In this document: positions 9,724 to 25,797 of the stretch, one piece after another | How positions within the stretch are numbered: the first letter of the stretch is position 1 | How the letters are laid out: the number at the start of each line of letters is the position of its first letter | IMG/VR virus record: IMGVR_UViG_3300006923_000081 | Location: 1 to 32,599 of that record | From: a virus | Length of the DNA stretch: 32,599 nucleotides | Strand: one strand, 5' to 3' | The notes under the pieces: model-generated | Told to the model about the DNA's origin: nothing | What the model saw: the letters and a program-made list of their open reading frames with translations, nothing else | Databases searched by the model: none | Made by a program: the position numbers and the translations under genes

Positions 9724-9791
9724 GCTCTTCTCCCTCAAAAATGTCGTACAATACTTGTGTGACGTGACTTTTGAGGTTTCTTAGAGAGGAG
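9724..9791 (+). promoter_or_regulatory. Promoter cassette A (most diverged copy)
   Basis: GCTCTT at 9724-9729, a 17-bp spacer and TACAAT at 9747-9752 keep the family geometry. The shared transcript start GTGTGACGTGA and an SD (GAGAGGAG) follow. The family hairpin is replaced by a weak AAGGG...CCCTT pair at 9682-9716. It drives the gene at 9799. Confidence 0.6.
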
Positions 9792-9798
9792 ATGTGCC

Positions 9799-10122
9799 GT
9801 GCGTGTTCCAACTGTAATTCACCTGAATCGATTCCGTGAGTTGATCATGGAAGACATCGGGGTGGAAGTTCCAGACGTGCTGACGTTCAAAGTGAACGAT
9901 CTGGTGGAGTTGATGAACGTACCACTCAACCGCCGGTTCTTTGGTCCCTTGAGTCCTCTGGTAGAGAATGCCATTGTGAACATCCAGTACGGGCTAGCAT
10001 TGGGGACCGAAGCGATTATTGTAAAGTACAGCTATCTGATTGATTTTGCTGATAAGCATGGGGATGACGAGCGTGTAGTGACCAAGATTGTTTACCCTGG
10101 CGGGGAGGTACAAGTAGCATGA
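9799..10122 (+). CDS. Hypothetical 107-aa protein
   Basis: GTG 9799 is chosen because GAGAGGAG at 9784-9791 is 7 bases upstream; the ATG at 9792 opens only 15 codons in another frame. The protein is mixed alpha/beta, with no membrane segment and no recognised family. It is the first gene behind cassette A and shares ATGA with the next gene. Confidence 0.55.
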   Translation: MRVPTVIHLNRFRELIMEDIGVEVPDVLTFKVNDLVELMNVPLNRRFFGPLSPLVENAIVNIQYGLALGTEAIIVKYSYLIDFADKHGDDERVVTKIVYPGGEVQVA

Positions 10123-10322
10123 CGTGTATTTGCAGTTCATTTAATGTGCAGTTGGAAGGAGATGTGAAATTTTACGATCCGGATGACAAATGCTTGCGGC
10201 GGGATGACGGAACCAAATATCGATTCTATTGGCTCGGCTGTCCAGCTCATAAAGGTCGTTCTTTCAGAAAGACCCCTTCATTGGTTGTGGGGTTGAAGAT
10301 AGCCAACGAACTAGAAAGGTAA
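10119..10322 (+). CDS. Hypothetical 67-aa protein
   Basis: It starts in an ATGA overlap with its upstream neighbour. CICSSFN near the N-terminus and a later Cys-Pro-Ala-His (GCPAHKG) could bind a metal. No family is recognised. Confidence 0.5.
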   Translation: MTCICSSFNVQLEGDVKFYDPDDKCLRRDDGTKYRFYWLGCPAHKGRSFRKTPSLVVGLKIANELER

Positions 10323-10326
10323 GCTG

Positions 10327-10689
10327 ATGGAGTGCCCACACTGCAACAAGCAATCAGTTTTTGAGGCTGTGGAGATGATGAAGTTCAGACCTACCATTGA
10401 GAACTGGAATCTGGACAATCCACTGCATCAGCTGCCTGCTGCTTTGTACACTTGCGTCGAGTGTGATGGGACAGTCAAGATCGATCTCAAGTGTCATTAT
10501 TTGCAAGCCATCGAAACTCCGTTGATCTTCGACGACACAGCGAAGCAGATTCTTGCAGCGGCCAGGAAAGATCGATCGAAGCCAGTCCCCAGAAGCATCA
10601 TCGTGGCTCTGCGTCAGCGGAATTTCAAGAGAGTGCCTGACGATATGACCGGCTTGGATGTGGTTCGTTTGATTCTGGGCCAGACATGA
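10327..10689 (+). CDS. Zinc-ribbon-like 120-aa protein
   Basis: The protein begins MECPHCNK and has a second pair CVEC at about residue 43, spaced like a zinc ribbon. The rest is basic (AARKDRSKPVPRS, LRQRNFKR), consistent with nucleic-acid or protein contact. AAAGG at 10315-10319 serves as a weak SD. The stop is just before the hairpin of cassette B. Confidence 0.6.
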   Translation: MECPHCNKQSVFEAVEMMKFRPTIENWNLDNPLHQLPAALYTCVECDGTVKIDLKCHYLQAIETPLIFDDTAKQILAAARKDRSKPVPRSIIVALRQRNFKRVPDDMTGLDVVRLILGQT

Positions 10690-10691
10690 TT

Positions 10692-10801
10692 CCCCTTTAT
10701 TTTCACAATCTTTGTGATTTCAAGGGGATTAGAGTGGTCTTTTCCCCTTCGAATGCCGTATAATAAAGATGTGACGTGAGTGGTGTTCTTGAGAGGAGAA
10801 A
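10692..10801 (+). promoter_or_regulatory. Promoter cassette B (hairpin plus promoter)
   Basis: CCCCTT 10692-10697 pairs with AAGGGG 10722-10727, with an inner TCACAA/TTGTGA stem. GGTCTT lies at 10736-10741, the spacer is 17 bp, and TATAAT is at 10759-10764. AAAGATGTGACGTGAGTG and GAGAGGAG follow. There is no T-tract after the hairpin, so it is not a classic intrinsic terminator. Confidence 0.85.
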
Positions 10802-10807
10802 AGTGAG

Positions 10808-10990
10808 ATGGGCAAACTGATTTATTCTGGATGCATCGGCAATGGAAAGCTGAAAGAACTGGAAGTGATTCAGCTGAAGAGCGGTCGAGTTCGAATGATG
10901 CTGGCGGCTGGTGGCTGCTATGGTCAGATCTTTGAAGGGTCGATTGAAGAAGCCCGAGCGGAGTACAAACGACTGAAAAAGGAGAACTGA
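10808..10990 (+). CDS. Hypothetical 60-aa protein
   Basis: It starts at ATG 10808 after GAGAGGAG. The sequence alternates short strands (KLIYSGCIGNGKLKELEVIQL) and ends in a charged helix (EEARAEYKRLKKEN). It is the first gene of the operon that also carries the sigma-like factor and SNF2 helicase. No family is recognised. Confidence 0.55.
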   Translation: MGKLIYSGCIGNGKLKELEVIQLKSGRVRMMLAAGGCYGQIFEGSIEEARAEYKRLKKEN

Positions 10991-10991
10991 G

Positions 10992-12290
10992 ATGAGTGAC
11001 AATACTGTTGAACCTAGAACCTATTTCATTCCAATTTGCTGTTTGGAAGAGCTGACGGCCAAGATCGAGAAGCTGAATAAACGGGCCAAAAAACTGGGAG
11101 CCACTCCAATCGGGATGGAAGTTGGGGACAAATCTGTTCGGTACGGTATCCACGAAATGGATACCATCGCATGGGTGGAAGTGGTTGAGCCCCATCACAA
11201 GCCCACTGGGCAGGTCATAGAAGTCCGAGAAGTGACTGTCACAGGGGAATCCCCCAAATATGACGGGTGGACGTTCCTGGCGACTCTGGAGCCTGTGGGC
11301 GAAAAGAACATAATCCGATCGCTGGATGATGAGTGTGACTTGTCAGAGTACCGGGATCGAGTTGGGGAGTGTGATCACTGCCGGAAAGATCGTCGGAGAA
11401 AAGACACTTATGTCGTTCGCCACGATGATGGCAGAATGATGATGGTTGGCAAAACTTGCCTGAAGGACTTTCTGGGGCACAGCAATCCCAATTCATTGGC
11501 AGCGTGGGCATCCGCCATGTTCGGACTGGATGATCTGTTTTCCGGGTATGCTGATTCTGATGGATTCGGGGAGCGGTCGGTCGGCAGCTGGTCACTGGAA
11601 CTCTTCCTGGGATACGTGGCTGGCTACATCCGAGCCTATGGTTGGGTTTCTGGAAAAGAAGCTCATGAGAGTTTGGGTGCCAAGTTCTCCACTGCCCATG
11701 AAGTGGTCGATCACCTGGCCACTCCAGATGCTTACAGAAACGAAGCTTGGAATCGTGTTGAAGAGAAGATCTTCCCCACTGCAACTTCAGTCTGTAATAA
11801 AGCAGCAGCGGCCATCGAATGGGCCAAAGCCATTGAAACCGGCAACGGCAACGACTACCTGGACAATCTGCAGTTGATCGCAGAAGCGGGGTACGTCACC
11901 CAGCGGCTGGCCGGATACGCGGCTTCCATGCTGATCGCTCATGATCGATTCTTAGATCGGGAGCTGGAGCGGCTGAAGAAAGCTAATCGTCCTGATTCTC
12001 ACCATGTGGGAAACATCAAGGAACGAATGACGATGACTGTCACTTGTGAGCGGATTTTCACGAGTGAAGGAATGTGGGGAGTGACTGGGATCCACAAGAT
12101 GGTTGATGCGGATGGAAATGACATTACCTGGTTCGCTTCCGGCTCTGCGGAATGGTTGGACATCGGTAACACTTACGTTGTCAAAGCCACCGTCAAAGAG
12201 CACAGCGAGTACCGGGATCGGGCTCAGACCATCGTCAATCGAGTGAAGATCATGGAAGAAGTGGCGGAAGAAGTTGCGAGTGTTGGCTGA
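10992..12290 (+). CDS. Phage protein with CxxC finger and C-terminal OB-like strand region
   Basis: This 432-aa protein has ECDHCRKDRRRKDTYVV (Cys127, Cys130) and VGKTCLKDFLG (Cys156), a treble-clef-like finger I know from uncharacterised proteins of several phages. The centre is helical. The C-terminal part (TCERIFTSEGMWGVTG, ITWFASGSAEWLDIGNTYVVKATVK) alternates short strands like an OB fold. A nucleic-acid-binding role is inferred. It is separated by one base from the gene before. Confidence 0.6.
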   Translation: MSDNTVEPRTYFIPICCLEELTAKIEKLNKRAKKLGATPIGMEVGDKSVRYGIHEMDTIAWVEVVEPHHKPTGQVIEVREVTVTGESPKYDGWTFLATLEPVGEKNIIRSLDDECDLSEYRDRVGECDHCRKDRRRKDTYVVRHDDGRMMMVGKTCLKDFLGHSNPNSLAAWASAMFGLDDLFSGYADSDGFGERSVGSWSLELFLGYVAGYIRAYGWVSGKEAHESLGAKFSTAHEVVDHLATPDAYRNEAWNRVEEKIFPTATSVCNKAAAAIEWAKAIETGNGNDYLDNLQLIAEAGYVTQRLAGYAASMLIAHDRFLDRELERLKKANRPDSHHVGNIKERMTMTVTCERIFTSEGMWGVTGIHKMVDADGNDITWFASGSAEWLDIGNTYVVKATVKEHSEYRDRAQTIVNRVKIMEEVAEEVASVG

Positions 12291-12344
12291 TTCAGTTACA
12301 TTAGTCAATTGCAGAAATTTGGACTTAACCTGAGGAGAAACAGG

Positions 12345-12881
12345 ATGCAGGCTTTGATGGAAGTGGACCCAGAACGGGAGACGTACGAAGACGTGGAGCA
12401 GCTGATCAACAAGATCTGCAATCGATTCGTGAAAACGTATGGCGGGGAATTTGATGAGCTGAAAGGTATTGCCAATTTGGCCTATGTTCCAGCCAGCCGA
12501 AGCTATGAACCGGGACACGGCACCAAGTTCACATCTTACATATCCACATGCGTCTGGAGGCGTCTCAAGTACCACTGTGACATCCAGCGAAGAAACGTGA
12601 CGGCTCAGTCGCTGACGACAAAAGAAGGCGAACAGCGAGACGTGGAAGCCCCTGGTGCTTCTGATTTCAGAATTAGCAGCATGCTGAAACAGCTGTCAGA
12701 AGACGCGAAACAGATCGTACAGGTTGTGGTTGGCAGTCCGGAAGATTTGGCCGAGACGCTACTGCCGCCTGGGACGCACACCTTCTATGCAAGAGCTGCA
12801 GTCAATAAGTACATGAAGTCGTTGGGCTGGAAACCAGCTCGGATCAAAAAGTGCTTGGCTGATATCAAGGGGGTGCTGTAG
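12345..12881 (+). CDS. Sigma-70 region 2-like transcription factor
   Basis: This 178-aa protein starts at ATG 12345, 7 bases after GAGGAG at 12332-12337. Residues about 15-85 resemble sigma region 2: an N-terminal helix (VEQLINKICNRFVKTYGGEF), a shortened 2.2 helix (DELKGIANLAYV) and YEPGHGTKFTSYISTCVWRR, which mirrors FDPxxGxKFSTYAxWWIR (regions 2.3-2.4, -10 recognition and melting). The C-terminal part (LSEDAKQIVQVV..., YMKSLGWKPARIKKCL) is helical and could be a divergent region 4. It lies in an operon headed by cassette B and is a candidate factor for the repeated promoters, which is inference. Confidence 0.68.
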   Translation: MQALMEVDPERETYEDVEQLINKICNRFVKTYGGEFDELKGIANLAYVPASRSYEPGHGTKFTSYISTCVWRRLKYHCDIQRRNVTAQSLTTKEGEQRDVEAPGASDFRISSMLKQLSEDAKQIVQVVVGSPEDLAETLLPPGTHTFYARAAVNKYMKSLGWKPARIKKCLADIKGVL

Positions 12882-14281
12882 TGCCAAGCAGTCCAATGCC
12901 TCACCAGAAAGATGGCATCAAGTTCATCGAGAAGCATCACGGAAGGGTGCTTCTCGCTGACGATATGGGGTTGGGAAAGTCGTTCACTTCGTTGGGGGTT
13001 CTGTATCGAAATCCTGACATGTTCCCGGCTGTGGTGGTTTGTCCAGCTGGGGTGAAGTTCAATTGGGAGCACGAAGCTCAGCATCACTTCGGATATCGAG
13101 CTTCGATCTGTGAAGGTGAAGCAGCTCCAAATCTGACGGATCGGGCCGGGATTCCCCAGCTGACGATTATCAATTACGACATCTTGGCTCCACGGAGAAA
13201 AGATGATCGAGTGGTGAAGATCAAGCCGTGGACAGATTACCTTCGGCAGCTGAAGCCGAAGACTCTGATTCTCGATGAATGTCAGATGTTGGGAGGTCGG
13301 GCAACGAAACGGACCAAAGCAATCACCAAGCTCAGCAAGGAGTTCAAGCACATCATTGCGATGTCTGGGACTCCGATTGTGAATCGACCGATCGAGCTGT
13401 TTCCAATTCTTCGGATCCTTTGGCCAAGGGAGTTCCGTTCGTTCTGGGAGTATGCACAGCGTTACTGCAATCCGAAGCTCAAGCCGTGGGGTTGGGAGTA
13501 CAAAGGTGCTACCAATTTGGACGAGCTCCACAATCGATTGAGGCGGTTGGGGATGCTGCGACGAACTGAAGGTATTCTGAATCTGCCAAATAAGAAGACT
13601 TCAATCACAGTGATGCCGATGAAAGATTCCAGCCAGTATCACATGGCTGAGAATGATTTCCTGGCATGGGCTCGAAAGCACAAAGCAGACCGAGTGCATT
13701 CGATCAAGAAAGCCGAAGCTGTCAGCAAGGTGGGCTACCTTTTGCGGTTGGCGGCTGAGCTGAAGATGGATTCTTGTGTGGATTGGGCCAACAAATTCTT
13801 GGATGAGAATCCAAAGGAGAAGCTGGTGCTGTTCGCTTTCCACAAGCCAGTGATCAAACGACTGACCAAAGAAATTCCTGTGAAGTCGATCGTGATCGAT
13901 GGGACCGTGACGGGCAGAGTTCGACAAGAAGCCGTCTGGCAGTTCCAGAAAGATCCACAGACTCGTCTCTGCGTGGCTCAGTTGAAGGCAGCGGGGGTTG
14001 GGATCAATCTCACAGCAGCGGCCACCCTGGCTCATGTGGAGCTGTGGCACAATCCAGCGACTCACAATCAGGCTTCCAAACGGATCCATCGCATTGGCCA
14101 GAAGTCAGACACAAACATCCACTACTTGATCGCTCAAGGTTCGATCGAAGAACGTCTCTGCAAGCTGTTGCAGAAGAGACAGGAGATCATCGCGGCGATC
14201 ATCGATGGAGGCGATTCGCCAAAAGACTTCAACATTTACCAGGAGCTGGTTTCAGCTTTGGGCAAAGGAGCTTTTTCATGA
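12881..14281 (+). CDS. SNF2-family DNA helicase/translocase
   Basis: This 466-aa protein starts at GTG 12881, overlapping the upstream TAG by one base. It carries the full SF2 set: motif I DDMGLGKS (residues 27-34), Ia VVVCPAGVKFNWEHE, II LDECQ (DEAH-box variant), III MSGTP, V AAGVGINLTAA and VI QASKRIHRIGQ. It is compact like SMARCAL1/RapA-type phage helicases and lacks extra DNA-binding domains. It uses ATP to translocate on duplex DNA, with likely roles in recombination, repair or replication. It shares ATGA with the next gene. Confidence 0.92.
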   Translation: MPSSPMPHQKDGIKFIEKHHGRVLLADDMGLGKSFTSLGVLYRNPDMFPAVVVCPAGVKFNWEHEAQHHFGYRASICEGEAAPNLTDRAGIPQLTIINYDILAPRRKDDRVVKIKPWTDYLRQLKPKTLILDECQMLGGRATKRTKAITKLSKEFKHIIAMSGTPIVNRPIELFPILRILWPREFRSFWEYAQRYCNPKLKPWGWEYKGATNLDELHNRLRRLGMLRRTEGILNLPNKKTSITVMPMKDSSQYHMAENDFLAWARKHKADRVHSIKKAEAVSKVGYLLRLAAELKMDSCVDWANKFLDENPKEKLVLFAFHKPVIKRLTKEIPVKSIVIDGTVTGRVRQEAVWQFQKDPQTRLCVAQLKAAGVGINLTAAATLAHVELWHNPATHNQASKRIHRIGQKSDTNIHYLIAQGSIEERLCKLLQKRQEIIAAIIDGGDSPKDFNIYQELVSALGKGAFS

Positions 14282-14598
14282 CGGACGAAAACAAGATTCG
14301 CGATATCGACAGGGCCAGGGAAACCATCCGGAGACCAATCCGGATCGATCCAAAAACCGTGGCAGCGATCAATTTGCGGAATATCACACACAAGATCCGA
14401 CAGGACTTCAAAGCGGCTTGTGCGAAGTCCGGAATTAGTGTTCACCATGCACTGAGAGAGTACGTTGAGATGTGTATCCAAAAAGGTGAAGTGCTGACCA
14501 TGTTGTACTACGACATGATCATGGAGATCAAAACACTGAAAGCCCAGATCGAAGAATTGCAGCAGCAGATAGATGACGACAGCATTCCAGATCTTTGA
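14278..14598 (+). CDS. Small helical protein, possibly ribbon-helix-helix-like, with coiled coil
   Basis: This 106-aa protein starts at ATG 14278 (AAAGGAG upstream, ATGA overlap); a longer in-frame start lies wholly inside the helicase gene. IRQDFKAACAKSGISVHHALREYV resembles the helical part of ribbon-helix-helix/Arc proteins, and LKAQIEELQQQIDDD is a short coiled coil. A DNA-binding or helicase-partner role is possible. It closes the operon. Confidence 0.55.
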   Translation: MTDENKIRDIDRARETIRRPIRIDPKTVAAINLRNITHKIRQDFKAACAKSGISVHHALREYVEMCIQKGEVLTMLYYDMIMEIKTLKAQIEELQQQIDDDSIPDL

Positions 14599-14603
14599 TT
14601 ATT

Positions 14604-14705
14604 CCCCTTAATCTTTAGGATTCCAAGGGGATTAGAGTGGTCTTTTGAGGGGAAAGTGACGTATAATAAAGATGTGACGTGAGTGATGTCTTTTGTTTGA
14701 GGAGA
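14604..14705 (+). promoter_or_regulatory. Promoter cassette C (hairpin plus promoter)
   Basis: CCCCTT 14604-14609 pairs with AAGGGG 14625-14630, with inner AATC/GATT. GGTCTT is at 14639-14644, the spacer is 17 bp, and TATAAT is at 14662-14667. The GTG at 14679 is in frame with the gene's ATG 14712, giving a possible 11-residue extension. Confidence 0.87.
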
Positions 14706-14711
14706 ATTGAG

Positions 14712-15026: not shown

Positions 15027-15027
15027 A

Positions 15028-15804: not shown

Positions 15805-15814
15805 GGAGAGTGTG

Positions 15815-16057: not shown

Positions 16058-16945
16058 GTGATCTCAGACTATCTTCAAAACAGGGGAATCCAGACAGCAA
16101 ATTCTTCCCACCACCATGTGAGATCTGGGTGGGTTGGATTTGACTGTCCCGGCTGCTCTCCTGGTTGGGGGAAGTTCCGAGCGGGCATTGAGCTATCGAC
16201 TGGCAGAACGAATTGCTGGCATTGCGGGCTGTTGCAAGGTCGGAAGGTGTTGGTTGATCTGCTGGGGATACCATACTCCGAAGCTTGTCGGGTGTGGGCT
16301 CAGGAGTTCAAAAATCAGCACCTCTTTGTGCCTGATGCCGAAGATGAAAAACTCGGTACTCTGGAGCTGCCGAAAGGCATCGTCGATCTGATGACGATCC
16401 ACAAGCAGTATCTGAAGAAGCGGGGATTCGATCCAGGGATTCTGTCAAAACTTTGGGGGATCCGGGGGATCGGCATGGCGGTCAAGCTTTCATGGAGGAT
16501 CTTCATCCCGATCCATGATGATCGTGGTCGAGTTGTTTCCTGGACTACCAGAGCACTCCACAACGACGGCACTCGATACCAATCAGCATCGAACGATCAG
16601 GAAGAGAAGAACCTGAAGACGCTGTTGTATGGCGAGCACTTGGCGAGAAACACAATCGTGATCGTGGAAGGTCCGATGGATGCGTGGGCGATCGGCCCCG
16701 GTGGAGTGGCCACTCTGGGTATCGCTTACACTCAGACGCAGCTGTGCAGGCTCTCACAGTACACTCAGCGGATAGTTTGCTTCGACGCGACAGAAGATGC
16801 ACAAGATCGAGCTGACGCTCTCTGTGCTCAACTGGCGGCTTTTCCTGGACTCACTGAGAATGTGATGTTGGAGACCGGAGATGATCCAGCTGATGCTGAT
16901 CCAGCTGAGATCGCAGAGCTACGAGCCCGTTATCTCGAATTCTGA
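16058..16945 (+). CDS. DnaG-like primase (zinc finger plus Toprim)
   Basis: This 295-aa protein has an N-terminal zinc-binding site (CPGC at 30-33, CWHC at 53-56). A middle region (FIPIHDDRGRVVSWTTRAL, YLYGEHLARN-like YGEHLARN) precedes the Toprim motifs VIVEGPMDAW (Glu204, Asp208) and IVCFDATEDAQ (Asp243). The domain order matches DnaG-type primases without the helicase-binding domain. It would make RNA primers for phage replication. GTG 16058 follows the upstream TGA directly. Confidence 0.85.
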   Translation: MISDYLQNRGIQTANSSHHHVRSGWVGFDCPGCSPGWGKFRAGIELSTGRTNCWHCGLLQGRKVLVDLLGIPYSEACRVWAQEFKNQHLFVPDAEDEKLGTLELPKGIVDLMTIHKQYLKKRGFDPGILSKLWGIRGIGMAVKLSWRIFIPIHDDRGRVVSWTTRALHNDGTRYQSASNDQEEKNLKTLLYGEHLARNTIVIVEGPMDAWAIGPGGVATLGIAYTQTQLCRLSQYTQRIVCFDATEDAQDRADALCAQLAAFPGLTENVMLETGDDPADADPAEIAELRARYLEF

Positions 16946-16950
16946 TTATT

Positions 16951-17037
16951 CCCCTTAATCTTTAGGATTCCAAGGGGATTAGAGTGGTCTTCAGAGGGGT
17001 TTATGTCGTATAATATAAATGTGAGGTGTGAGTGATT
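16951..17037 (+). promoter_or_regulatory. Promoter cassette D (hairpin plus promoter, altered leader)
   Basis: CCCCTT 16951-16956 pairs with AAGGGG 16972-16977. GGTCTT is at 16986-16991, the spacer is 17 bp, and TATAAT is at 17009-17014. Unlike the other copies, the leader is interrupted by a separate hairpin (17038-17075) before the SD. Confidence 0.85.
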
Positions 17038-17075
17038 GCTCTTCTCTGCGGAGGAAAGGCCCCGCAGAAGAGAGC
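17038..17075 (+). promoter_or_regulatory. Long 5'-UTR hairpin unique to cassette D
   Basis: The left arm 17038-17051 pairs with the right arm 17062-17075 over 14 positions, with one G-U and one C-A. The 10-base loop contains the SD-like AGGAAAGG. It lies about 20 bases into the predicted transcript and 32 bases before ATG 17107, so it could tune stability or translation. Confidence 0.6.
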
Positions 17076-17106
17076 TTTGTTTGTCGCTGATTTGAGGAGA
17101 GAAGTG

Positions 17107-17520: not shown

Positions 17521-17533
17521 GAGGAGAACTGAG

Positions 17534-17988: not shown

Positions 17989-18182
17989 CAAACGAACTGG
18001 AGCACTTAACTGTTGAAGAGAAAGCGGCTGTGTTTGCTGCTTTGAAGTTGCTGGGATTCAAGAGCCACTGTGGCGAATGGATTGAAATCACAGAAGCGGG
18101 AGCTGTTTACGTGGGATTGGTTGAGATTTTACCGGCTGGAAGTATTTCCTTTAATTCTTTGGAATTGAAGGGGAAAGAGTAG
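17985..18182 (+). CDS. Hypothetical 65-aa protein running into cassette E
   Basis: It starts in an ATGA overlap. The last residues (SISFNSLELKGKE) are encoded by the hairpin of cassette E, and the stop TAG lies just before the -35-like hexamer. Translation would cross the hairpin. No family is recognised. Confidence 0.5.
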   Translation: MTNELEHLTVEEKAAVFAALKLLGFKSHCGEWIEITEAGAVYVGLVEILPAGSISFNSLELKGKE

Positions 18183-18241
18183 TCTTCTGAGGGGTGTCTT
18201 GCGTATAATAAAGATGTGACGTGAGTGGTGTTCTTGAGAGG
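18148..18241 (+). promoter_or_regulatory. Promoter cassette E (hairpin overlaps upstream gene)
   Basis: CCTT...AAGG encloses AATTC/GAATT (18153-18157 with 18162-18166). AGTCTT is at 18181-18186, the spacer is 17 bp, and TATAAT is at 18204-18209. The GTG at 18221 is in frame with ATG 18251. The hairpin is inside the preceding gene's 3' end. Confidence 0.83.
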
Positions 18242-18250
18242 AGAAAAGTG

Positions 18251-18544: not shown

Positions 18545-18560
18545 AGAGGAGAACTGAGTG

Positions 18561-18767: not shown

Positions 18768-18782
18768 GAGGAGAACTGAAGA

Positions 18783-18965: not shown

Positions 18966-18980
18966 GAGGAGAACTGAAGA

Positions 18981-19766: not shown

Positions 19767-19810
19767 GCGATGAAATAGCTGGGGTGGATTTCTCCTCTCC
19801 CCCATGCTCG

Positions 19811-19850
19811 GCCCGATCGATGTACGTCACTCCATCGATCGGGCTTTTTT
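19811..19850 (+). terminator. Intrinsic terminator after the DUF2786 gene
   Basis: The perfect 12-bp stem GCCCGATCGATG (19811-19822) with CATCGATCGGGC (19833-19844) is followed by six T. It ends the operon from cassette E just before cassette F. Confidence 0.93.
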
Positions 19851-19863
19851 CGTGTCAAAATTT

Positions 19864-19972
19864 CCCCTTTATTTCCACAATCTTTAGGATTCCAAGGGGA
19901 TTAGAGTGGTCTTTTGAGGGGAAAGTGACGTATAATAAAGATGTGACGTGAGTGATGTTCTTGAGAGGAGAA
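19864..19972 (+). promoter_or_regulatory. Promoter cassette F (hairpin plus promoter)
   Basis: CCCCTT 19864-19869 pairs with AAGGGG 19894-19899. GGTCTT is at 19908-19913, the spacer is 17 bp, and TATAAT is at 19931-19936. The GTG at 19948 is in frame with ATG 19978. It is the only copy that also has a classic terminator upstream. Confidence 0.87.
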
Positions 19973-19977
19973 AAGTG

Positions 19978-20399: not shown

Positions 20400-21375
20400 A
20401 TCTTGGTTTGAAAAACTGATGGGATTCAATGAGTACGATCACGATCATGACATGGTCAAAAGTCTGCTCAGGGTTTCGAGTAACGGGTTTCTGCAGTCTC
20501 GGGCGAACAGAAAGAAGTACCGCTGTGGGGTTCTGGATACTCCATCTGTGGAAGGTCTTCGCAGAGTGGCCAGCACTCACTATGGACCACCAGGAGACCG
20601 ATTGAAATTTGAGCAAATTGCTGCCGATGTCACAAATCTGCATCGGGATCCAGCCAATGCCGGGGCTCTGTTCCAGGTGGCGTCTCAGTTCAATCTGCTG
20701 GAAATGGTGTCTCCTGACATGACTCCAGAGTGTGGGCTGGCGATCTATGAGAACGATCACACTCAAGGGCCAGCATGTGCCATTGCCTGCGGAGCTGGCA
20801 CGATCTATCGAAACTACCTGGCCGAAGTAAACGGACAGGTGGGGCAGGACAAGAGAAATCAGATCGACTGTTCTGATGACATCGGGCACTTGCTGGGGAA
20901 TGCGAGAGAAGAGCTGTGGAAGATGGCGAATGGATATCTGTTGCCGACTGTTGAAGGACTGCGAGAGATCGCCGGATGGGTCGTTGACGAGCCTGGCAGT
21001 TTACGCAACAAAGCCATCAACCTTCTGAAGATCGGGATCCAGTGGGACACTGAGGTCACTCTGGAAGACTGCGGGCATTGTGTGACTCAGGCGTATTGCT
21101 CAGCGGTCCCGGTTTCTTACTCTCGGATTTTCTCCGATGAGTGGAAAGAGTTGGGGATCTTGATTCTGGAAGGTGCCTATGAAGCCACTCTCTGTGCTGG
21201 CATCATTAACGCAGTGGCCACCGGAAATAACACGGTGTTTCTGACTTCACTGGGTGGGGGAGCGTTCGGCAATCCTGAAGAGTGGATCACCGGAGCGATC
21301 GACAAAATACTCAAAAAGTACGCAGCTTTCGATCTGGATGTCAAACTTGTCCACTATCCCAAGAGCATCAAATGA
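20392..21375 (+). CDS. Macrodomain-like protein of unknown function
   Basis: This 327-aa protein contains ENDHTQGPACAIACGAGTIYRNYL in its middle and TVFLTSLGGGAFGNPEEWITGAIDKILKKY near residue 280, followed by LDVKLVHYPK. The GGGAFGN loop after a hydrophobic strand and before a helix resembles the second ADP-ribose-binding loop of macrodomains, and an uncharacterised family with both motifs is known to me from diverse genomes. Hydrolysis or binding of ADP-ribose or an NAD-derived signal is possible but unproven. ATG 20392 lacks a strong SD and overlaps the gene before by 8 bases. Confidence 0.55.
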   Translation: MRKSWFEKLMGFNEYDHDHDMVKSLLRVSSNGFLQSRANRKKYRCGVLDTPSVEGLRRVASTHYGPPGDRLKFEQIAADVTNLHRDPANAGALFQVASQFNLLEMVSPDMTPECGLAIYENDHTQGPACAIACGAGTIYRNYLAEVNGQVGQDKRNQIDCSDDIGHLLGNAREELWKMANGYLLPTVEGLREIAGWVVDEPGSLRNKAINLLKIGIQWDTEVTLEDCGHCVTQAYCSAVPVSYSRIFSDEWKELGILILEGAYEATLCAGIINAVATGNNTVFLTSLGGGAFGNPEEWITGAIDKILKKYAAFDLDVKLVHYPKSIK

Positions 21376-21641
21376 TCATGGAGATTCCCCCCAAGTACCT
21401 GAAAGCAATGAAGCAGGGAACGCAAGCCCCGCCTGGTAGCATCGAAAAGATCAACATAATGTGTGATCGTCACTCGCTGGGCATGCCTTTACATGCAAAA
21501 GGCGATGCTCATCTTTTCGCTGATCTGTCAGCTAGTGAAGCAAGTAAGAGAATCCATGCAGACCGTTCGTGTGGTTTGCATTTGAGCCACAGGGGGCAGC
21601 TGCCGAAGTTCAAGAGTGAAAAACCAGGAGAGCAGGCATGA
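21372..21641 (+). CDS. Hypothetical 89-aa His/Cys-containing protein
   Basis: ATG 21372 overlaps the upstream stop as ATGA; ATG 21378 is an alternative. The middle holds IMCDRHSLGMPLHAKGDAHLF and CGLHLSHRG, two His/Cys groups that could bind a metal. No family is recognised. It may work with the macrodomain-like protein, with which it is coupled. Confidence 0.5.
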   Translation: MIMEIPPKYLKAMKQGTQAPPGSIEKINIMCDRHSLGMPLHAKGDAHLFADLSASEASKRIHADRSCGLHLSHRGQLPKFKSEKPGEQA

Positions 21642-21643
21642 TT

Positions 21644-21755
21644 CCCCTTAATCTTTCACAATCTTTGTGGTTTTAAGGGGAAAAGAGTGGTCTTCAGAGG
21701 GGAATCTAGCGTATAATAAAGATGTGACGTGAGTGATGTCTTTTGTTTGAGGAGA
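21644..21755 (+). promoter_or_regulatory. Promoter cassette G (hairpin plus promoter)
   Basis: CCCCTT 21644-21649 pairs with AAGGGG 21675-21680, with an inner CACAA/TTGTG stem. GGTCTT is at 21689-21694, the spacer is 17 bp, and TATAAT is at 21712-21717. The GTG at 21729 is in frame with ATG 21762. Confidence 0.87.
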
Positions 21756-21761
21756 GAAGTG

Positions 21762-21860
21762 ATGGCTGCTGCAAGAAACGAAGCGGAGTTGCCCTGGGCT
21801 GGGGGCTGGGTGTTCTTGGCCGGTTTGGTGGTCGCTGTTGTTGGTGGCATGTTTGCTTGA
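21762..21860 (+). CDS. Tiny membrane protein (32 aa)
   Basis: ATG 21762 lies at the standard distance from the cassette SD. The frame encodes 10 polar residues (MAAARNEAEL) then PWAGGWVFLAGLVVAVVGGM, a complete single membrane helix with a Gly-rich face. Start, SD and spacing match the other cassette-first genes, which supports it despite its size. Confidence 0.55.
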   Translation: MAAARNEAELPWAGGWVFLAGLVVAVVGGMFA

Positions 21861-21882
21861 CTTTTGTGTGAGGAGAAGACTG

Positions 21883-22206
21883 ATGGGGATCGCGGAAATC
21901 ACTTTGAAACAGTTGGGTGGGGCCGGTCGCTTGAAAGCGTTTGCTGGCGGCAGAGACTTCATGAGTGATGGAGTCAACGGTGAGATCTTGATGTTCAAGT
22001 TCAAGGGCAAGGTTGCCAACTACGTCGAAATCGCTTTGGACGCTGCCAGTGATACTTATGTTTTGAAGTTCAAGAAAGTCGGACGGATGAGTCGCAAGAC
22101 TTTCAAGGCTCCCAAGGTCGTCTTGGTCGAAGAAGTCGCTGGTGTTTACTGTGACAATTTGGTCGAAGTGTTTGAGCGTGTTTCTGGTTTGTATTTGAGT
22201 TTGTGA
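21883..22206 (+). CDS. Conserved small phage protein (107 aa)
   Basis: It starts at ATG 21883 after AGGAG. ITLKQLGGAGRLKAFAGGRDF...MFKFKGKVANYVEIALDAASDTYVLKFKKVG...VYCDNLVEVFERVSGLYLSL follows a pattern I know from uncharacterised phage proteins (TLxQLGG, a strand pair, then DxLxxVFxxxTGLY). Function unknown. Confidence 0.62.
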   Translation: MGIAEITLKQLGGAGRLKAFAGGRDFMSDGVNGEILMFKFKGKVANYVEIALDAASDTYVLKFKKVGRMSRKTFKAPKVVLVEEVAGVYCDNLVEVFERVSGLYLSL

Positions 22207-22213
22207 AATATTG

Positions 22214-22332
22214 TGCTCGCAGAGGTCGAAGGACCTAACTGGCACATCGGGGTGCTATTTTCAAGTCTAACGGCGAAGTAGCAACGTCAAAGGCATGAAA
22301 CCTGATGGGGAGTTCGAGTCTCCCAGCGAGCA
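22214..22332 (+). ncRNA. tRNA-like RNA, 119 nt
   Basis: TGCTCGC 22214-22220 pairs perfectly with GCGAGCA 22326-22332 as an acceptor-like stem. A canonical T-arm GGGAG-TTCGAGT-CTCCC lies at 22308-22324. AGGTC/GACCT (22223-22227 with 22232-22236) is in D-arm position but has a 4-base loop. TGGCAC/GTGCTA (22240-22257) is in anticodon-arm position but lacks the usual loop. The total is far longer than a normal tRNA, no CCA is encoded, and one base separates T-arm and acceptor. It could be a degenerate or unusual tRNA or a tRNA mimic. Confidence 0.5.
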
Positions 22333-22392
22333 GCTTTTTGAGTTTGTTGTAATCTGTTGCAATTCTTTGCAACAACCGAGAGGAGAGTTCTG

Positions 22393-22632
22393 ATGGCCAG
22401 GTCTACGTTTCGATGCAATTTGGCAAAGTACACTGGATCTCGGGGGGTGGAAGCTCATGCCTTTCGGGCTGGAGTAGACGAAGCCTTTCGCCAGACGATG
22501 ACGACAGCCGATGATTGCCATTGGACTGCGTTGAAGCTTCGAGAGGACGAGAACGGGGCTGTTTCGTGGTATGTCGATTTGCATTCTTGTCCACCACACT
22601 GGCCAGAAGCCTATACGGAAGGAGATGACTGA
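22393..22632 (+). CDS. Hypothetical 79-aa protein
   Basis: ATG 22393 follows GAGAGGAG. The sequence contains AFRAGVDEAFRQTM and a Trp/His/Cys-containing C-terminus (WYVDLHSCPPHWPEAY). No family is recognised. Its stop shares TGATG with the next start. Confidence 0.52.
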   Translation: MARSTFRCNLAKYTGSRGVEAHAFRAGVDEAFRQTMTTADDCHWTALKLREDENGAVSWYVDLHSCPPHWPEAYTEGDD

Positions 22633-22790
22633 TGCGGAGAGAATGGGCTGTGTTCCGGGGGAACTCTTTGGTGAGTCGCCACTGGCACGAAGCCGATGCA
22701 AGAGACAAATTGAGAGCCGGTTGTCATGTACGGCACTGGCGATACGGATGGGGAAATAAAGGAGGATGGTGCTGTGAGCTGCCTTACTAA
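22632..22790 (+). CDS. Trp/Arg-rich 52-aa protein
   Basis: ATG 22632 sits 7 bases after AAGGAG 22619-22624 in a TGATG junction. The product (MRREWAVFRGNSLVSRHWHE...WRYGWGNKGGWCCELPY) is basic with seven Trp. The competing frame from ATG 22625 has the SD touching its start codon and is less likely. Confidence 0.45.
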   Translation: MRREWAVFRGNSLVSRHWHEADARDKLRAGCHVRHWRYGWGNKGGWCCELPY

Positions 22791-23001
22791 AATGACAGGT
22801 GAACAATTTCGGTCTGCGAAGCTGACGATTGCAAATGAGTTGCAGCAGAGCAAAGAACGCGGCGATCGCTGCTGGCACAGGGCCTGGGCGATGGTGACGA
22901 TGGTGGAGCACACCTTTTGTCACGATGATTACATCTTGTGTGGTCAGTACGTTTGGGATTATATCAACGAACTCGATCGATTTAAGCTGGAGAGTGACTG
23001 A
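22774..23001 (+). CDS. Hypothetical 75-aa protein
   Basis: GTG 22774 is preceded by AAGGAGG 22758-22764; ATG 22792 is an alternative. It is mostly helical (TGEQFRSAKLTIANELQQSKERGDRCW), followed by HDDYILCGQYVWDYINELDRF. No family is recognised. It overlaps the gene before by 17 bases and the one after by one. Confidence 0.5.
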   Translation: MSCLTKMTGEQFRSAKLTIANELQQSKERGDRCWHRAWAMVTMVEHTFCHDDYILCGQYVWDYINELDRFKLESD

Positions 23002-23222
23002 TGCCTACGAAACCACCACCACCTTTCAATCTGGATGCCAGGCCGGGGCTGGGTCCAGCTGTGTCGGCGGCGTACGATGCGTATTGTGGACTGCCAACAA
23101 CAGACCAGAGCCCTGGACCGAGTGAGTACCGAGCGGCAGAGTATCGACGAATCCATGATCGCTTCGTCACTTCGGGAAAATATCCCACCTATCGTGAACT
23201 TTGGAACAAGAAGGAGAACTGA
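23001..23222 (+). CDS. Hypothetical 73-aa Pro-rich protein
   Basis: It starts in a TGATG junction. The N-terminus is Pro-rich (PTKPPPPFNLDARPGLGP) and the rest is helical and basic (YRAAEYRRIHDRFVTSGKYPTYRELW). No family is recognised. Confidence 0.5.
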   Translation: MPTKPPPPFNLDARPGLGPAVSAAYDAYCGLPTTDQSPGPSEYRAAEYRRIHDRFVTSGKYPTYRELWNKKEN

Positions 23223-23223
23223 A

Positions 23224-23403
23224 ATGAGCGGAATCAAAAAACATGGCAGTGTTTACATTGAGCTGGCGGGGAACTTTGCCCCAGAATGGCGACAACTCGT
23301 GGATGCTGTCAAAGCGTTTGAAGGCAATGATGCCAGTGTCGCAGATGCTGCTAAAGAACTGGTTGAATGTGTTTTGTATGTGACTGATGAGAAGGAGAAC
23401 TGA
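23224..23403 (+). CDS. Hypothetical 59-aa protein
   Basis: ATG 23224 follows AAGGAG. GSVYIELAGNFAPEWRQLVDAVKAFEG is a strand-helix start, then a helix (ASVADAAKELVECVLYV). No family is recognised. Confidence 0.52.
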   Translation: MSGIKKHGSVYIELAGNFAPEWRQLVDAVKAFEGNDASVADAAKELVECVLYVTDEKEN

Positions 23404-23404
23404 G

Positions 23405-23626
23405 ATGGATCCACAAGCCACCATTTGCGATCTACTGGACGCAATGCAAAGAAACGACAGAGAAGCCGTGGATGAATTGCTGGACGCTCTGAAGGGCTGG
23501 AACAAAGCAGGGGGCTTCATGCCGATCATTCGGAAGAGTTTGCAAGCAAATCAGTATAGTGTCTACCGATACGACAGAACTGATGCGTATCGTCCTGGAT
23601 ATGCAGAGACAAACAATTCCCCTTAA
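23405..23626 (+). CDS. Hypothetical 73-aa protein running into cassette H
   Basis: ATG 23405 follows AAGGAG at 23392-23397. ATICDLLDAMQRNDREAVDELLDALKGW suggests a two-helix hairpin, followed by a Tyr-rich end. The stop is inside the left arm of the cassette H hairpin. Confidence 0.52.
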   Translation: MDPQATICDLLDAMQRNDREAVDELLDALKGWNKAGGFMPIIRKSLQANQYSVYRYDRTDAYRPGYAETNNSP

Positions 23627-23716
23627 TCTTTCAGAATTGAGGGGTTTAGAGTGGTCTTTTCCCCTTCAAGTGACGTATAATAAAGATGTGACGTGAGTGA
23701 TGACCTTTGTTTGAGG
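23619..23716 (+). promoter_or_regulatory. Promoter cassette H (shortened hairpin plus promoter)
   Basis: CCCC 23619-23622 pairs with GGGG 23641-23644 around AAT/ATT. GGTCTT is at 23653-23658, the spacer is 17 bp, and TATAAT is at 23676-23681. The GTG at 23693 is out of frame with ATG 23725. Confidence 0.84.
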
Positions 23717-23724
23717 AGAGAGAA

Positions 23725-24312
23725 ATGAGATACTCGTTTGCTAATGCTTCAGCGGCTGAGCTGGTTGAGCTGTCCGAAGCGGGCAAAGTTGAAGTGGCTG
23801 GGAACTTGAAGATCTATCGCTTCGATGCGAACGATGGCCCATCTTTGAAGATCTGGCGGGGACGGGCAAAGAAGCCTTATGCCCACTATCGCTTCGCCAA
23901 TGAAGAGCGGCGGGAAGAGTACATCAGAAAGCAGATTGCCAATGATGCCGAGAAGACCGAGCTGAAACTGAAGCACAAAGCTGAAAGCAAAGCTCGGAAA
24001 GCCGAGACGCGAAAGCGGTTCAAAGTCGGAACGATTCTGCATTACTCTTGGGGCTATGGTCAGACTCAGTGTGAGTATTACGAAGTGATCGAAGTCAAAG
24101 GAGCCTATGCGATCATTCGAGAGATTGCCGCCAAGACGGTTCCTGGCTCTGAAGGCTTCATGTGTGACAAGCGGGTTGCTTGTCCTGGTGTCTTCATCGG
24201 TCCCAAGATGCGGAAGCTGATCGGTGAGTATGGGTGCCGGATGGCATCACACTCAGCTGCAGCGAGTCCCTGTGATCCTCTGGAAGAGAATTATTGCTCT
24301 TGGTATCACTAA
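23725..24312 (+). CDS. Hypothetical 195-aa protein
   Basis: ATG 23725 follows TTTGAGGAG. An N-terminal part (FANASAAELVELSEAGKVEVAGNLKIYRF) resembles the compact domain seen in uncharacterised phage proteins. It is followed by a long charged helix (EERREEYIRKQIANDAEKTELKLKHKAESKARKAE) and a small strand-rich C-terminal domain (ILHYSWGYGQTQCEYYEVIE). A clear terminator follows. Confidence 0.6.
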   Translation: MRYSFANASAAELVELSEAGKVEVAGNLKIYRFDANDGPSLKIWRGRAKKPYAHYRFANEERREEYIRKQIANDAEKTELKLKHKAESKARKAETRKRFKVGTILHYSWGYGQTQCEYYEVIEVKGAYAIIREIAAKTVPGSEGFMCDKRVACPGVFIGPKMRKLIGEYGCRMASHSAAASPCDPLEENYCSWYH

Positions 24313-24319
24313 TCAAACG

Positions 24320-24346
24320 GGGGGCAGTGGTTGCCCCCATATTTTT
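24320..24346 (+). terminator. Intrinsic terminator after the 195-aa gene
   Basis: GGGGGCA 24320-24326 pairs with TGCCCCC 24332-24338 (5-base loop), followed by ATATTTTT. It is a compact, strong intrinsic terminator. Confidence 0.9.
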
Positions 24347-24374
24347 CTGAGTTTCATCTGAGAGGAGAATTGAG

Positions 24375-24587
24375 ATGGATTTGATGACATTCCTCAGAGT
24401 CAAACCGATCGGCAGAAAGATCACTGTCAATGTCAGTCGAAACGGGGAGCCGTTTGGGCAGCTGTGGACTTGGTCCAACACTCGAACAGAACGACATCCT
24501 TGGCACAGCAAGCCTCTGGATGGAGAACACAAGACCCACAAGACGCAAAAAGCTGCCCGCAAACGTATGCTGGAAGAAGCCAAATAA
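24375..24587 (+). CDS. Hypothetical 70-aa protein
   Basis: ATG 24375 follows GAGAGGAG. It is basic and Trp-containing (PFGQLWTWSNTRTERHPWHSKPLDGEHKTHKTQKAARKRM), a pattern of small phage proteins with a central strand pair and C-terminal helix. No separate promoter is seen after the terminator, so read-through or a weak promoter is needed. Confidence 0.55.
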   Translation: MDLMTFLRVKPIGRKITVNVSRNGEPFGQLWTWSNTRTERHPWHSKPLDGEHKTHKTQKAARKRMLEEAK

Positions 24588-24608
24588 ACCGCAACGGCAC
24601 AGGCAAAT

Positions 24609-24637
24609 CAAGCAGATTGATCAGCTGCCTCTGCTTG
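24609..24637 (+). repeat. Hairpin of unknown role
   Basis: CAAGCAG 24609-24615 pairs with CTGCTTG 24631-24637. No T-tract follows. It lies between a small gene and the interrupted ORF at 24660 and might be a processing or attenuation element. Confidence 0.45.
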
Positions 24638-24659
24638 CCGCAATACGGAGGAGGTGTTC

Positions 24660-24866
24660 GTGAAAAATCGATTTGTGTGATTACTCCCAGCTGGTTGGCC
24701 TAACCATTTCTCAGATGACGGTCTGGGGAAGATGCCGGAAGATCTCAAGCCCGTTCAGGACCAGCGAGCGGCCCAAGCGAATCTGCCGGGTGAAATTCCC
24801 GGCTTACTGTTTCCCCTTTATTTCCACAATCTTTGTGATTTCAAGGGGATTGGAGTGGTCTTTTGA
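24660..24866 (+). pseudogene. Small ORF interrupted by an in-frame TGA (24678-24680)
   Basis: GTG 24660 is 5 bases after GGAGGAGG 24647-24654. The frame reads MKNRFV, then TGA, then continues open as LLPAGWPNHFSDDGLGKMPEDLKPVQDQ... into cassette I and stops at 24864-24866. Trp at the TGA would give a plausible protein. It may be a decayed gene, a six-residue leader, or chance. Confidence 0.3.
24785..24803 (+). terminator. GC-rich hairpin ahead of cassette I
   Basis: GCCGGG 24785-24790 pairs with CCCGGC 24798-24803, followed by TTACTGTTT, a weak U-rich stretch. It probably terminates transcription just upstream of cassette I. Confidence 0.55.
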
Positions 24867-24929
24867 GGGGTGATATGCGTATAATATAGATGTGCGGCGG
24901 GGGTCGTCGCTGTTGGTTTGTTTGAGGAG
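24813..24929 (+). promoter_or_regulatory. Promoter cassette I (hairpin plus promoter)
   Basis: CCCCTT 24813-24818 pairs with AAGGGG 24843-24848, with an inner CACAA/TTGTG stem. GGTCTT is at 24857-24862, the spacer is 17 bp, and TATAAT is at 24880-24885. The leader lost the GTGACGTGAGTG block (GTGCGGCGGGGG instead). Confidence 0.85.
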
Positions 24930-24936
24930 TTGAGTG

Positions 24937-25185
24937 ATGCGAAATCGAAAAGCCAAGATGATGCTCCCTGATCGTGACGTTCGGGAGCTTCGTCTGTTGC
25001 GAGCGTGGGAGGACGCTGCTGTTGACGCTGGTTGGACTTGGTCCGATCGTCATGATGTTCTTTCTGACGCCAAGTCTGCTGATCGGAAGCACATGCTGCG
25101 TGTTCTTGCTGCCAACACTGTTGGAGACGATACGCTTGCCATGCTTGCCATGGCTCTTGCCGATCCTATGGCTCTGTCTGTTTGA
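24937..25185 (+). CDS. Hypothetical 82-aa protein
   Basis: ATG 24937 is 7 bases after AGGAG; GTG 24934 is too close. It is helical and Arg/Asp-rich (LPDRDVRELRLLRAWEDAAVDAGW, SADRKHMLRVLAANTVGDD). No family is recognised. Confidence 0.52.
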   Translation: MRNRKAKMMLPDRDVRELRLLRAWEDAAVDAGWTWSDRHDVLSDAKSADRKHMLRVLAANTVGDDTLAMLAMALADPMALSV

Positions 25186-25205
25186 TGCTGAAGGCCAGTG
25201 ATCCG

Positions 25206-25292
25206 ATGACTGCTGATGACAAGTCGCTCTTGTCATCCGGGGCACCATCCGCTGGCTTTCTCTTTCCCGGCTGCTGTAGAGGAGAATTCTGA
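25206..25292 (+). CDS. Possible 28-aa peptide
   Basis: ATG 25206 opens MTADDKSLLSSGAPSAGFLF...CCRGEF and its TGA overlaps the next ATG at 25292 (TGATG). There is no good SD. Its last codons are the SD of the next gene, so it may only be a coupling ORF. Confidence 0.28.
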   Translation: MTADDKSLLSSGAPSAGFLFPGCCRGEF

Positions 25293-25438
25293 TGAGTGAC
25301 AAAGAAAAACGGGCTACAGAAGATTCATCACTGATGAAAGTTTGTGAAGCAATCGGAAAAATGAGCCAGAAGGAACTCGACCGATTGTGATTTGAGATCG
25401 ATCTTCGATCCAACCGATTGAAAGGATTACTGCCATGA
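25292..25438 (+). pseudogene. Small gene with in-frame TGA at 25388-25390
   Basis: ATG 25292 follows AGAGGAG. The frame encodes 32 residues (MSDKEKRATEDSS...MSQKELDRL), then TGA, then 15 further codons (FEIDLRSNRLKGLLP) to TGA 25436-25438, which overlaps the next ATG 25435 as ATGA. That junction is the normal one in this genome, so the downstream stop looks like the original end. The first TGA could be a TGG-to-TGA change, readthrough, or the true stop. Confidence 0.45.
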
Positions 25439-25674
25439 GTGACGTTCAACTGCAAAACAAGCACAAGAGTTTGCATCTGCCAGACGGCGGGATCCTGCTC
25501 TACCGATACGAAGAAGGTGATTGTGATACGATCGCCTGGCCGCTGCGGAAAAAGCAGCACAGCCAGCTTGCCGGGGCTCTGTACGCTGAGATGATGTGCG
25601 GAGAGATCGACGAGTACGCGAATGTGATCTTGCCGAATGGCGAGACGTTCGATGTGATCGGAAATTTGAAGTGA
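25435..25674 (+). CDS. Hypothetical 79-aa protein
   Basis: ATG 25435 follows AAAGGA. It is strand-rich (SLHLPDGGILLYRYEEGDCDTIAWPL) and then helical and acidic (LAGALYAEMMCGEIDEYANVIL). No family is recognised. Confidence 0.55.
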   Translation: MSDVQLQNKHKSLHLPDGGILLYRYEEGDCDTIAWPLRKKQHSQLAGALYAEMMCGEIDEYANVILPNGETFDVIGNLK

Positions 25675-25724
25675 TTTTGGAAGTGGAATTTCCAGAAATA
25701 TCCCGAATCCGAACGGCTTAGTGT

Positions 25725-25791
25725 GGACTTTTCCCCTTCAAGTGACGTATAATAAAGATGTGACGTGAGTGATGTCTTTTGTTTGAGGAGA
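25725..25791 (+). promoter_or_regulatory. Promoter cassette J (no hairpin)
   Basis: GGACTT 25725-25730, a 17-bp spacer and TATAAT 25748-25753 are followed by the full conserved leader and TTTGAGGAG. The CCCCTT...AAGGGG hairpin is absent; only a short TGGAA/TTCCA pair lies near 25680. The GTG at 25765 is in frame with ATG 25798. Confidence 0.85.
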
Positions 25792-25797
25792 GAAGCG

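Follow-up and report, generated by a model that had tools for sequence, protein, structure and literature searches.

Ten near-identical units lie between genes in a stretch of phage DNA, the 32,599-base IMG/VR record IMGVR_UViG_3300006923_000081 (the whole of which we call the window), and we propose, with a probability of roughly two in three, that they are dispersed sigma70-type promoter cassettes that are tuned together via G-rich boxes and that have been spread and rearranged by recombination. The -10 elements of the units are located at positions 9747, 10759, 14662, 17009, 18204, 19931, 21712, 23676, 24880 and 25748, all ten of which had been placed correctly in an earlier reading of this DNA (the original prediction), and our checks of sequence, profile and gene layout agree with its description of the units as repeated, promoter-like sequences that head runs of genes and place all of them on the same strand. 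The phage is uncultured and its relatives are metagenome contigs. A second record, IMGVR_UViG_3300006793_000063 (45,668 bases), which is the only near-identical one, represents the same phage (99.99% identity across 30,651 bases), begins at window position 1949 and adds sequence on the right side.

Pattern searches pointed to a confined distribution of the unit. The motif CGTATAATA matched nine times in the window, always on the + strand, and the composite pattern AGAGTGGTCTT-N15-CGTATAAT also matched nine times when up to three mismatches were allowed, the mean in shuffled sequence being 0.00 in both cases. A 60-position profile retrieved 10/10 units in the window (weakest E-value 3e-10, next match 0.44, with 1.59 Mb searched), and a covariance model applied to 45 sources picked out of 209 loci retrieved the same ten (weakest 3.4e-16, next match 0.78); as profile and model were both trained on these ten units, their recovery is expected and it is the lack of further matches that is informative. 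The search of related phages called for in the original prediction thus returned the ten window units but no comparable unit in the relatives searched. Exact pattern scans of viral contigs found the unit in the same phage alone, the corresponding scan of genome contigs gave no match, and the 60-nt profile detected no unit in the nearest other relatives (loci L032 and L033, 45-52% protein identity to the window phage).

Read from 5' to 3', a full unit comprises a dyad (usually CCCCTT...AAGGGG), a degenerate -35 element (TGGTCT or TGGACT) inside TTAGAGTGGTCT, an 18-bp spacer whose RAGGGG box at -15 can face either way and has a second such box as its counterpart at -37, the -10 motif CGTATAATA, a conserved leader as the putative 5' end of the mRNA and a strong Shine-Dalgarno (SD) sequence. 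Nine units have in common a AGAGTGGTCT-type block, the 18-bp spacer and TATAAT, the tenth (TACAAT at 9747) having diverged, and the best -35 hexamer at 18 bp is TGGTCT in seven units, TAGTCT at 18204 and TGGACT at 25748. When the nine TATAAT units were held in fixed register to the -10 element, the mean information content was 2.00 bits for CGTATAAT, 1.70 for TTAGAGTGGTCT and 1.73 for the first 15 bases of the leader, with the 16-bp spacer at 0.98 and the later part of the leader at 1.09. Conservation is therefore patterned on promoter parts, an argument for constraint on those parts as opposed to recent copying alone.

The hexamer at -15 is present in exact register in all nine TATAAT units, as CCCCTT at 10759, 23676 and 25748 and as GAGGGG, its near reverse complement, in the other six. 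A further AAGGGG or GAGGGG occurs at -37 (-36 in 18204) in 8/9 of these units, so that the two boxes sit two helical turns apart, and comparison of 23676 with 19931 revealed a -15 box that is flipped between identical flanks. The conserved leader of the original prediction holds in its exact form, GTGACGTGAGTG, for 7/10 units, those at 17009, 24880 and 9747 carrying variants. If transcription begins about seven bases past the -10 element, as is general at sigma70 promoters, the leader would form the 5' end of the mRNA. Between the end of the -10 element and the start codon lie 41-46 nt in 8/10 units, 51 nt in 24880 and 92 nt in 17009. The leader of the latter unit also contains (at 17038-17075) a strong hairpin with an SD-like loop and a T-rich tail (z -2.4) that could be an attenuator.

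Arms of the CCCC/GGGG type with variable inner pairs are found in 8/10 units, and the hairpin ascribed to the full form of the unit is to this extent borne out, but 9747 has a different strong hairpin (z -3.5) and 25748 has none of that type. The fold z-scores of single units ranged from -0.5 to -3.5, and only 9747 and 21712 fell beyond the lowest 5% of background windows (-2.0). The dyad starts 3-6 nt past the upstream stop codon in four of the eight CCCC/GGGG units (10759, 14662, 17009 and 21712). We rejected the dyad as a terminator, because no T run follows it and none of the ten dyads appeared in the list of terminator-like sites from a sequence scan of the region (23 sites versus 15.0 expected, with a loop limit of 8). 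Compensatory pairing in the dyad was not significant, 488 of 5040 permutations equalling or beating the observed sum, cognate dyad halves folded slightly better than swapped ones (-13.9 versus -12.6 kcal/mol), and RNAalifold on a MAFFT alignment, in which the dyad halves are out of register, gave no consensus stem at the dyad. As terminator scan, compensation and RNAalifold thus lend no support to the hairpin as an RNA element or terminator, we regard the dyad as a possible protein site, with a role in RNA as the alternative.

The copies are mosaics of one another. Unit 19931 equals 14662 across 80 nt (-52 to +27), while it shares 25 nt with 24880 at the left end and, at the right end, 23 nt with 10759 and 25 nt with 18204. 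Likewise, 14662 and 17009 have 49 nt in common that end where the spacer begins, 23676 and 25748 have 47 nt in common and unrelated dyads, and 21712 and 25748 have 50 nt of -10 element and leader in common with a different -15 box. All four combinations of -15 box orientation and leader type are seen. Recombination or gene conversion among the copies would be the simplest reading of these patterns.

With gene starts picked by eye from open reading frames (ORFs) and SD sites, the units head 42 predicted genes, 32 of them encoding fewer than 110 residues, in runs of two to eight genes (Table 1) and not of one to seven as had been proposed. The 3' end of the upstream ORF is overlapped by the units at 18204 (stop codon in the -35 block), 23676 (stop codon in the dyad) and 9747. 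No paralogues were found among the 42 genes at E 0.01; 7/10 small proteins compared with PHROGs had no match at E 0.01, and PADLOC gave no match for ten other proteins of the 42. Seven of the ten units sit between the primase and DnaB genes, in an interval of 12.4 kb. In relatives, which were gathered with the helicase at 12881-14281 as bait (30-48% identity, best 80 of 596), the primase-DnaB gap measured by tblastn is 33-4742 bp at the 42/92 loci that have both genes, some of which are near-duplicates (e.g., L021/L024 and L028/L029).

The sigma-like, helicase, primase and DnaB genes recur together in relatives, tblastn over the 92 loci detecting the sigma-like gene in 23, primase in 53 and primase plus DnaB in 42. 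By self-comparison, 22/92 loci harbour repeat families of at least three copies; these are of several kinds, and many are not promoters (16/22 viewed). Clear repeated promoter-type units were recognised by eye in G004 (two copies, TAGACT-16-TATAAT), G005 (three, TGGACA or TAGACG-17-TATATT), G006 (six, the last two diverged; TTGACT-17-TATAAC in 4/6) and G010 (three, TTGCAA or TTGCTA-17-TATATT), along with two possible ones in L020, and several of these carry better -35 elements than the window units, such as those in TGGACA-17-TATATT and TTGACT-17-TATAAC. The block AGGGAATAGGAGTGGACA (-36 to -19) of the G005 unit at 4357 matches the window consensus at 13/18 positions with an offset of one base, a level reached by 3 of 125,392 18-mers in the G005 contig, unit 4357 itself included; for the remaining two G005 units, the best of ten registers gives 11 and 9 of 18. 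One G004 unit carries, by eye, AAGGGG at -14, and the second has CAGGGG at -15. Taken together, these units and the weak block matches suggest that part of the clade shares the design and that its sequence is weakly kept, in G005 only. A scan for the G005-type unit returned G005 and two other contigs, all of the same phage. Helicase relatives in genome contigs had at most 31% identity (best 80 of 573), and no host was found.

We propose that RNA polymerase, most likely with host sigma70, initiates at each unit and would thereby produce about ten short operons, and that a factor which we infer to act on the G boxes probably tunes the units together. Host sigma70 appears the most likely reader, because nine units have a perfect TATAAT and because the units of relatives are sigma70-like. 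The copies would have spread and been rearranged through homologous recombination between units, and, as copies recombine in this way, a newly gained block of small genes would land behind a ready-made, co-regulated promoter. Given the signs of recombination among the copies, the units probably form a plug-in system that switches on accessory genes together. A more elaborate version, in which the clade gains its genes via this system, recombination copies the cassette before each new gene block, flippable G-box operators occupy -37 and -15, the mRNA 5' end carries a tag, and the phage sigma-like protein or another phage factor reads or gates the one regulon that accessory genes enter on arrival, is conceivable yet doubtful.

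Several observations weigh against the sigma70-type promoter reading. The -35-like hexamer of the original prediction exists, but it is poor by sigma70 rules in that only one unit (25748) passes a simple sigma70 scan, and a sigma70 scan of 9000-28000 yielded no excess (15 sites versus 14.6 in shuffles). The gap contrast with relatives is incomplete, as 11 further loci have a primase match without a DnaB match, and 5.0-7.6 kb of sequence follow the primase in five of these (L043, L050, L053, L054 and L065), so that long intervals may not be special to the window phage; one of the two G004 units falls in the L043 stretch downstream of primase (G004 being L043). Moreover, agreement with the window block is limited to 7-9 of 18 positions for the G004, G006 and G010 units, and the criteria used revealed no dispersed repeat in G007 (55.8 kb).

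The poor but nearly invariant -35 element and the length of the conserved motif keep a phage sigma factor among the candidate readers. The units could, with rather low probability, be middle or late promoters of the sigma-like protein at 12345-12881, which would feed back positively on its own synthesis via the unit 2 run. This protein matches Pfam Sigma70_r2 (E-value 8.7e-5, 22.7 bits, just below the 24-bit cut-off) and a PHROG sigma factor (4e-4), a profile of nine relatives matches sigma factors in the PDB at 2e-5, and residues ~11-80 are confidently predicted in its AlphaFold model, the predicted region 2 superposing on the sigma region 2 of 8b3z_D (70 columns, 2.1 A, E-value 0.087). The phage thus appears to encode a sigma-like factor of which region 2 alone is secure; a Foldseek search with the whole model gave no match that reached E 0.001. 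The length and strict conservation of the motif, together with its poor -35 element, would also fit phage-sigma promoters as far as the cited account describes them (PMC4331800). Set against this are the perfect sigma70 consensus -10 element in 9/10 units and the presence of sigma70-like repeated units in G006 (L048) and G010 (L034), neither of which had a sigma match by tblastn, a search confined to the loci and weak at 25% identity. Another, weak candidate regulator is a small protein (14278-14598) with a ParG (ribbon-helix-helix) match below the Pfam cut-off.

It is improbable that the units act mainly on RNA and translation, with leader and SD sequence setting translation and the dyad marking the 3' end of the upstream mRNA. 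The conserved, presumably transcribed leader, the strong SD sequence, the dyads that closely follow a stop codon in 4/8 units and the repeated SD/start contexts that relatives display would all suit such a role, but CGTATAAT and the -35 block, which precede any transcript start that one would expect, are under the strongest constraint, and the dyad has neither a terminator-like tail nor significant compensation or alifold support. Least probable of all, small mobile or recombination elements (MITE-like sequences or hot spots) with an incidental promoter look would account for the dispersed near-identical copies, the dyads and the mosaic breakpoints, but hardly for ten units on one strand that head gene runs, with near-fixed spacing to the start codon in 8/10 and conservation focused on promoter positions.

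The coordinates of the units and of other features are compiled in Table 1. Other repeated elements were noted at gene starts of relatives, by eye in the case of L026, L053 and L057. At L026 325-4765, 5/6 repeated intergenic units carry hairpins with a similar TGCAATT-like loop and differing stems, after which come a TTTTTCAGAAAGGAAG-like stretch and a start codon, and repeated long hairpin-like stretches directly precede gene starts at L053 6235-8815 and L057 2-1324. Repeated start-region motifs comprise TGACTATAAAAGGGAATA (six copies in L090) and a TATAAAGAACAAAAGAAAC-like sequence (eight copies in L104).

Within the window, positions 22213-22339 may encode a non-coding cloverleaf-like RNA (fold z -2.3) with a 7-bp acceptor, a 5-bp D-like arm, a long extended arm on the anticodon side and a perfect T-arm with loop TTCGAGT; ARAGORN made no call for it even with introns allowed, and Rfam gave no match at gathering scores. 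Similar tRNA-like elements (acceptor plus T-arm) occur at L032 5760-5863, where the element lies between primase and DnaB as in the window, at L040 8187-8297 and 8302-8393, and at L042 16805-16896. With introns allowed, ARAGORN recognised one of these elements (L040 8186-8299) as a tRNA whose anticodon is CTA. Acceptor plus T-arm minihelices with an 8-16 nt linker were seen before genes at L020 (~2385-2425 and ~2645-2685, identical to each other), L068 4950-4995 and L047 3403-3449; possibly, these minihelices are mRNA processing marks for tRNA enzymes. The gene before unit 1 (9130-9681) resembles, by eye, an HNH homing-type endonuclease, and the left end of the record (1-123) is a tandem 9-base repeat (CAAGTGAAT) outside the span of the near-identical record. 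Finally, a stretch of about 700 bases (27100-27790), for which the ORF list offers no convincing gene, holds the terminator-like hairpin at 27279-27311 as well as a large inverted repeat near 27665-27723 and may constitute a control or replication region.

Table 1. Promoter-type units and other features of the window (genes per run counted with hand-chosen starts).
Feature	Position	Strand	Genes in run	Description
Unit 1, diverged	9665..9798	+	3 (9799-10689)	Hairpin overlapping end of ORF 9130-9681, TACAAT 9747, leader, SD
Unit 2	10692..10807	+	5, including sigma-like protein and helicase	CCCCTT/AAGGGG dyad, TGGTCT, CCCCTT box at -15, TATAAT 10759, exact leader, SD
Unit 3	14604..14711	+	4, the last being primase	Dyad, TGGTCT, GAGGGG box at -15, TATAAT 14662, exact leader, SD
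Unit 4	16951..17106	+	4	Dyad, TGGTCT, GAGGGG box, TATAAT 17009, variant leader with strong hairpin 17038-17075
Unit 5	18145..18250	+	4	Variant dyad over 3' end of upstream gene, TAGTCT, GAGGGG box, TATAAT 18204, exact leader, SD
Unit 6, mosaic	19864..19977	+	4	TATAAT 19931
Unit 7	21644..21761	+	8 predicted, two overlapping	Dyad, TGGTCT, GAGGGG box, TATAAT 21712, exact leader, SD
Unit 8	23619..23724	+	2	Variant dyad CCCCTTAAT/AATTGAGGGG, TGGTCT, CCCCTT box, TATAAT 23676, exact leader, SD
Unit 9	24813..24936	+	3	Dyad, TGGTCT, GAGGGG box, TATAAT 24880, diverged leader
Unit 10	25718..25797	+	5	No CCCC/GGGG dyad, TGGACT, CCCCTT box, TATAAT 25748, exact leader, SD
Sigma-like protein, 178 aa	12345..12881	+		Third gene of unit 2 run; candidate promoter reader
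DNA helicase	12881..14281	+		Bait for relatives
Small protein	14278..14598	+		Weak ParG (ribbon-helix-helix) match below Pfam cut-off; weak candidate regulator
Primase	16058..16945	+		Left border of interval holding 7/10 units
Intrinsic-terminator-like hairpin, then T run	19810..19850	+		Shortly before unit 6; -23.0 kcal/mol, z -4.55; beyond loop limit of scan
Terminator-like hairpin with T tail	27279..27311	+		Downstream of last gene run; from terminator scan
DnaB-like helicase	29354..30700	+		Right border of primase-DnaB interval

The window offers a sequence-defined case in which a phage may enlarge its accessory-gene region and keep control of it via one reused and recombined promoter cassette, the gene blocks sitting in an interval whose measurable counterparts in relatives are short. 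As some other members of the clade have cassette families of their own with different sequences, the clade could help to show if gene gain is driven by the reuse of cassettes and in what way one cassette gives place to another, and the promoter set could be used to predict co-expressed small phage genes.

Cassettes of this kind are already known in outline. The SAS and ESAS (start-associated and extended start-associated sequences) of cluster K mycobacteriophages (further treated in PMC12699233) are, like the window units, dispersed intergenic repeats before mostly non-structural genes, and the ESAS, present in seven copies in Adephagia, is reported to combine SigA-like -35 and -10 hexamers 17-18 bp apart with an imperfect inverted repeat (PMC11373665, PMC3203893), so that the likeness in outline with a different layout noted in the original prediction is upheld to the extent of these accounts. 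With respect to the SigA-like pair, the window -10 element fits in nine units and the spacer is 18 bp, but the -35 element passes in 1/10. The 17-bp imperfect inverted repeat of the ESAS, with its 12-14 bp spacing, differs from the window dyad, whose conserved arms are 6 bp with variable inner pairs and stand at a distance of 20 to 31 from each other, depending on the unit; moreover, the window dyad lies upstream of the -35 element, whereas the ESAS repeat, judging from the lengths given in these accounts, seems to span the promoter. With up to three mismatches allowed, the 13-bp SAS sequence GGGATAGGAGCCC shows no excess in the window (5 matches versus 6.1 expected), and the conserved block is the 5' leader in the window units but the start-codon region in the cluster K SAS, in a different phage clade.

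Halovirus HF2 provides another parallel, in that its class I consists of seven mid-genome repeats with conserved blocks that are thought to serve early-middle genes, and the nine HF2 repeats that were cloned, from both classes, all had promoter activity (PMC8707807). The window units resemble these in being repeats with conserved blocks; according to the same account, the HF2 repeats differ in having an archaeal TATA/TSS (transcription start site) promoter and positions that are conserved among related viruses. In the window units, a promoter-like sequence is joined to a dyad in an intergenic cassette. Cassettes in which a promoter accompanies a stem-loop or an inverted repeat are also represented by the HGTV-1 motif and, in T4-type phages, by the PeSLs (promoter early stem-loops, with an early sigma70 promoter), and they are said to shuffle gene modules (PMC4503421, PMC3950731, PMC4177764, as far as these describe them). 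Unlike in PeSLs, the window stem-loop is not terminator-like by sequence scan, and shuffling is seen only among copies in one genome. The two window proteins compared with a phage collection showed no sign of kinship to T4-type phages, T4 structural genes not having been looked for: all matches were below 60% identity, the best among the matches listed reached at most 31%, and T4-like Vibrio phages were among the matches listed for one of the two. The promoters read by the sigma factors of phage 7-11 and others are described as typically well conserved (PMC4331800), and in this respect phages 7-11 and phiEco32 resemble the window phage, which combines a well conserved promoter motif with a sigma-like gene but differs in the perfect sigma70-type -10 element of its units. 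We found no literature on cassettes of the clade of the window phage, subscription journals being thinly covered. The units thus differ from ESAS and from PeSLs in at least one tested feature each, and what sets them apart is their arrangement, with a dyad before the -35 element, a flippable G box in the spacer, a conserved 5' leader and mosaic copies that lie largely in one interval.

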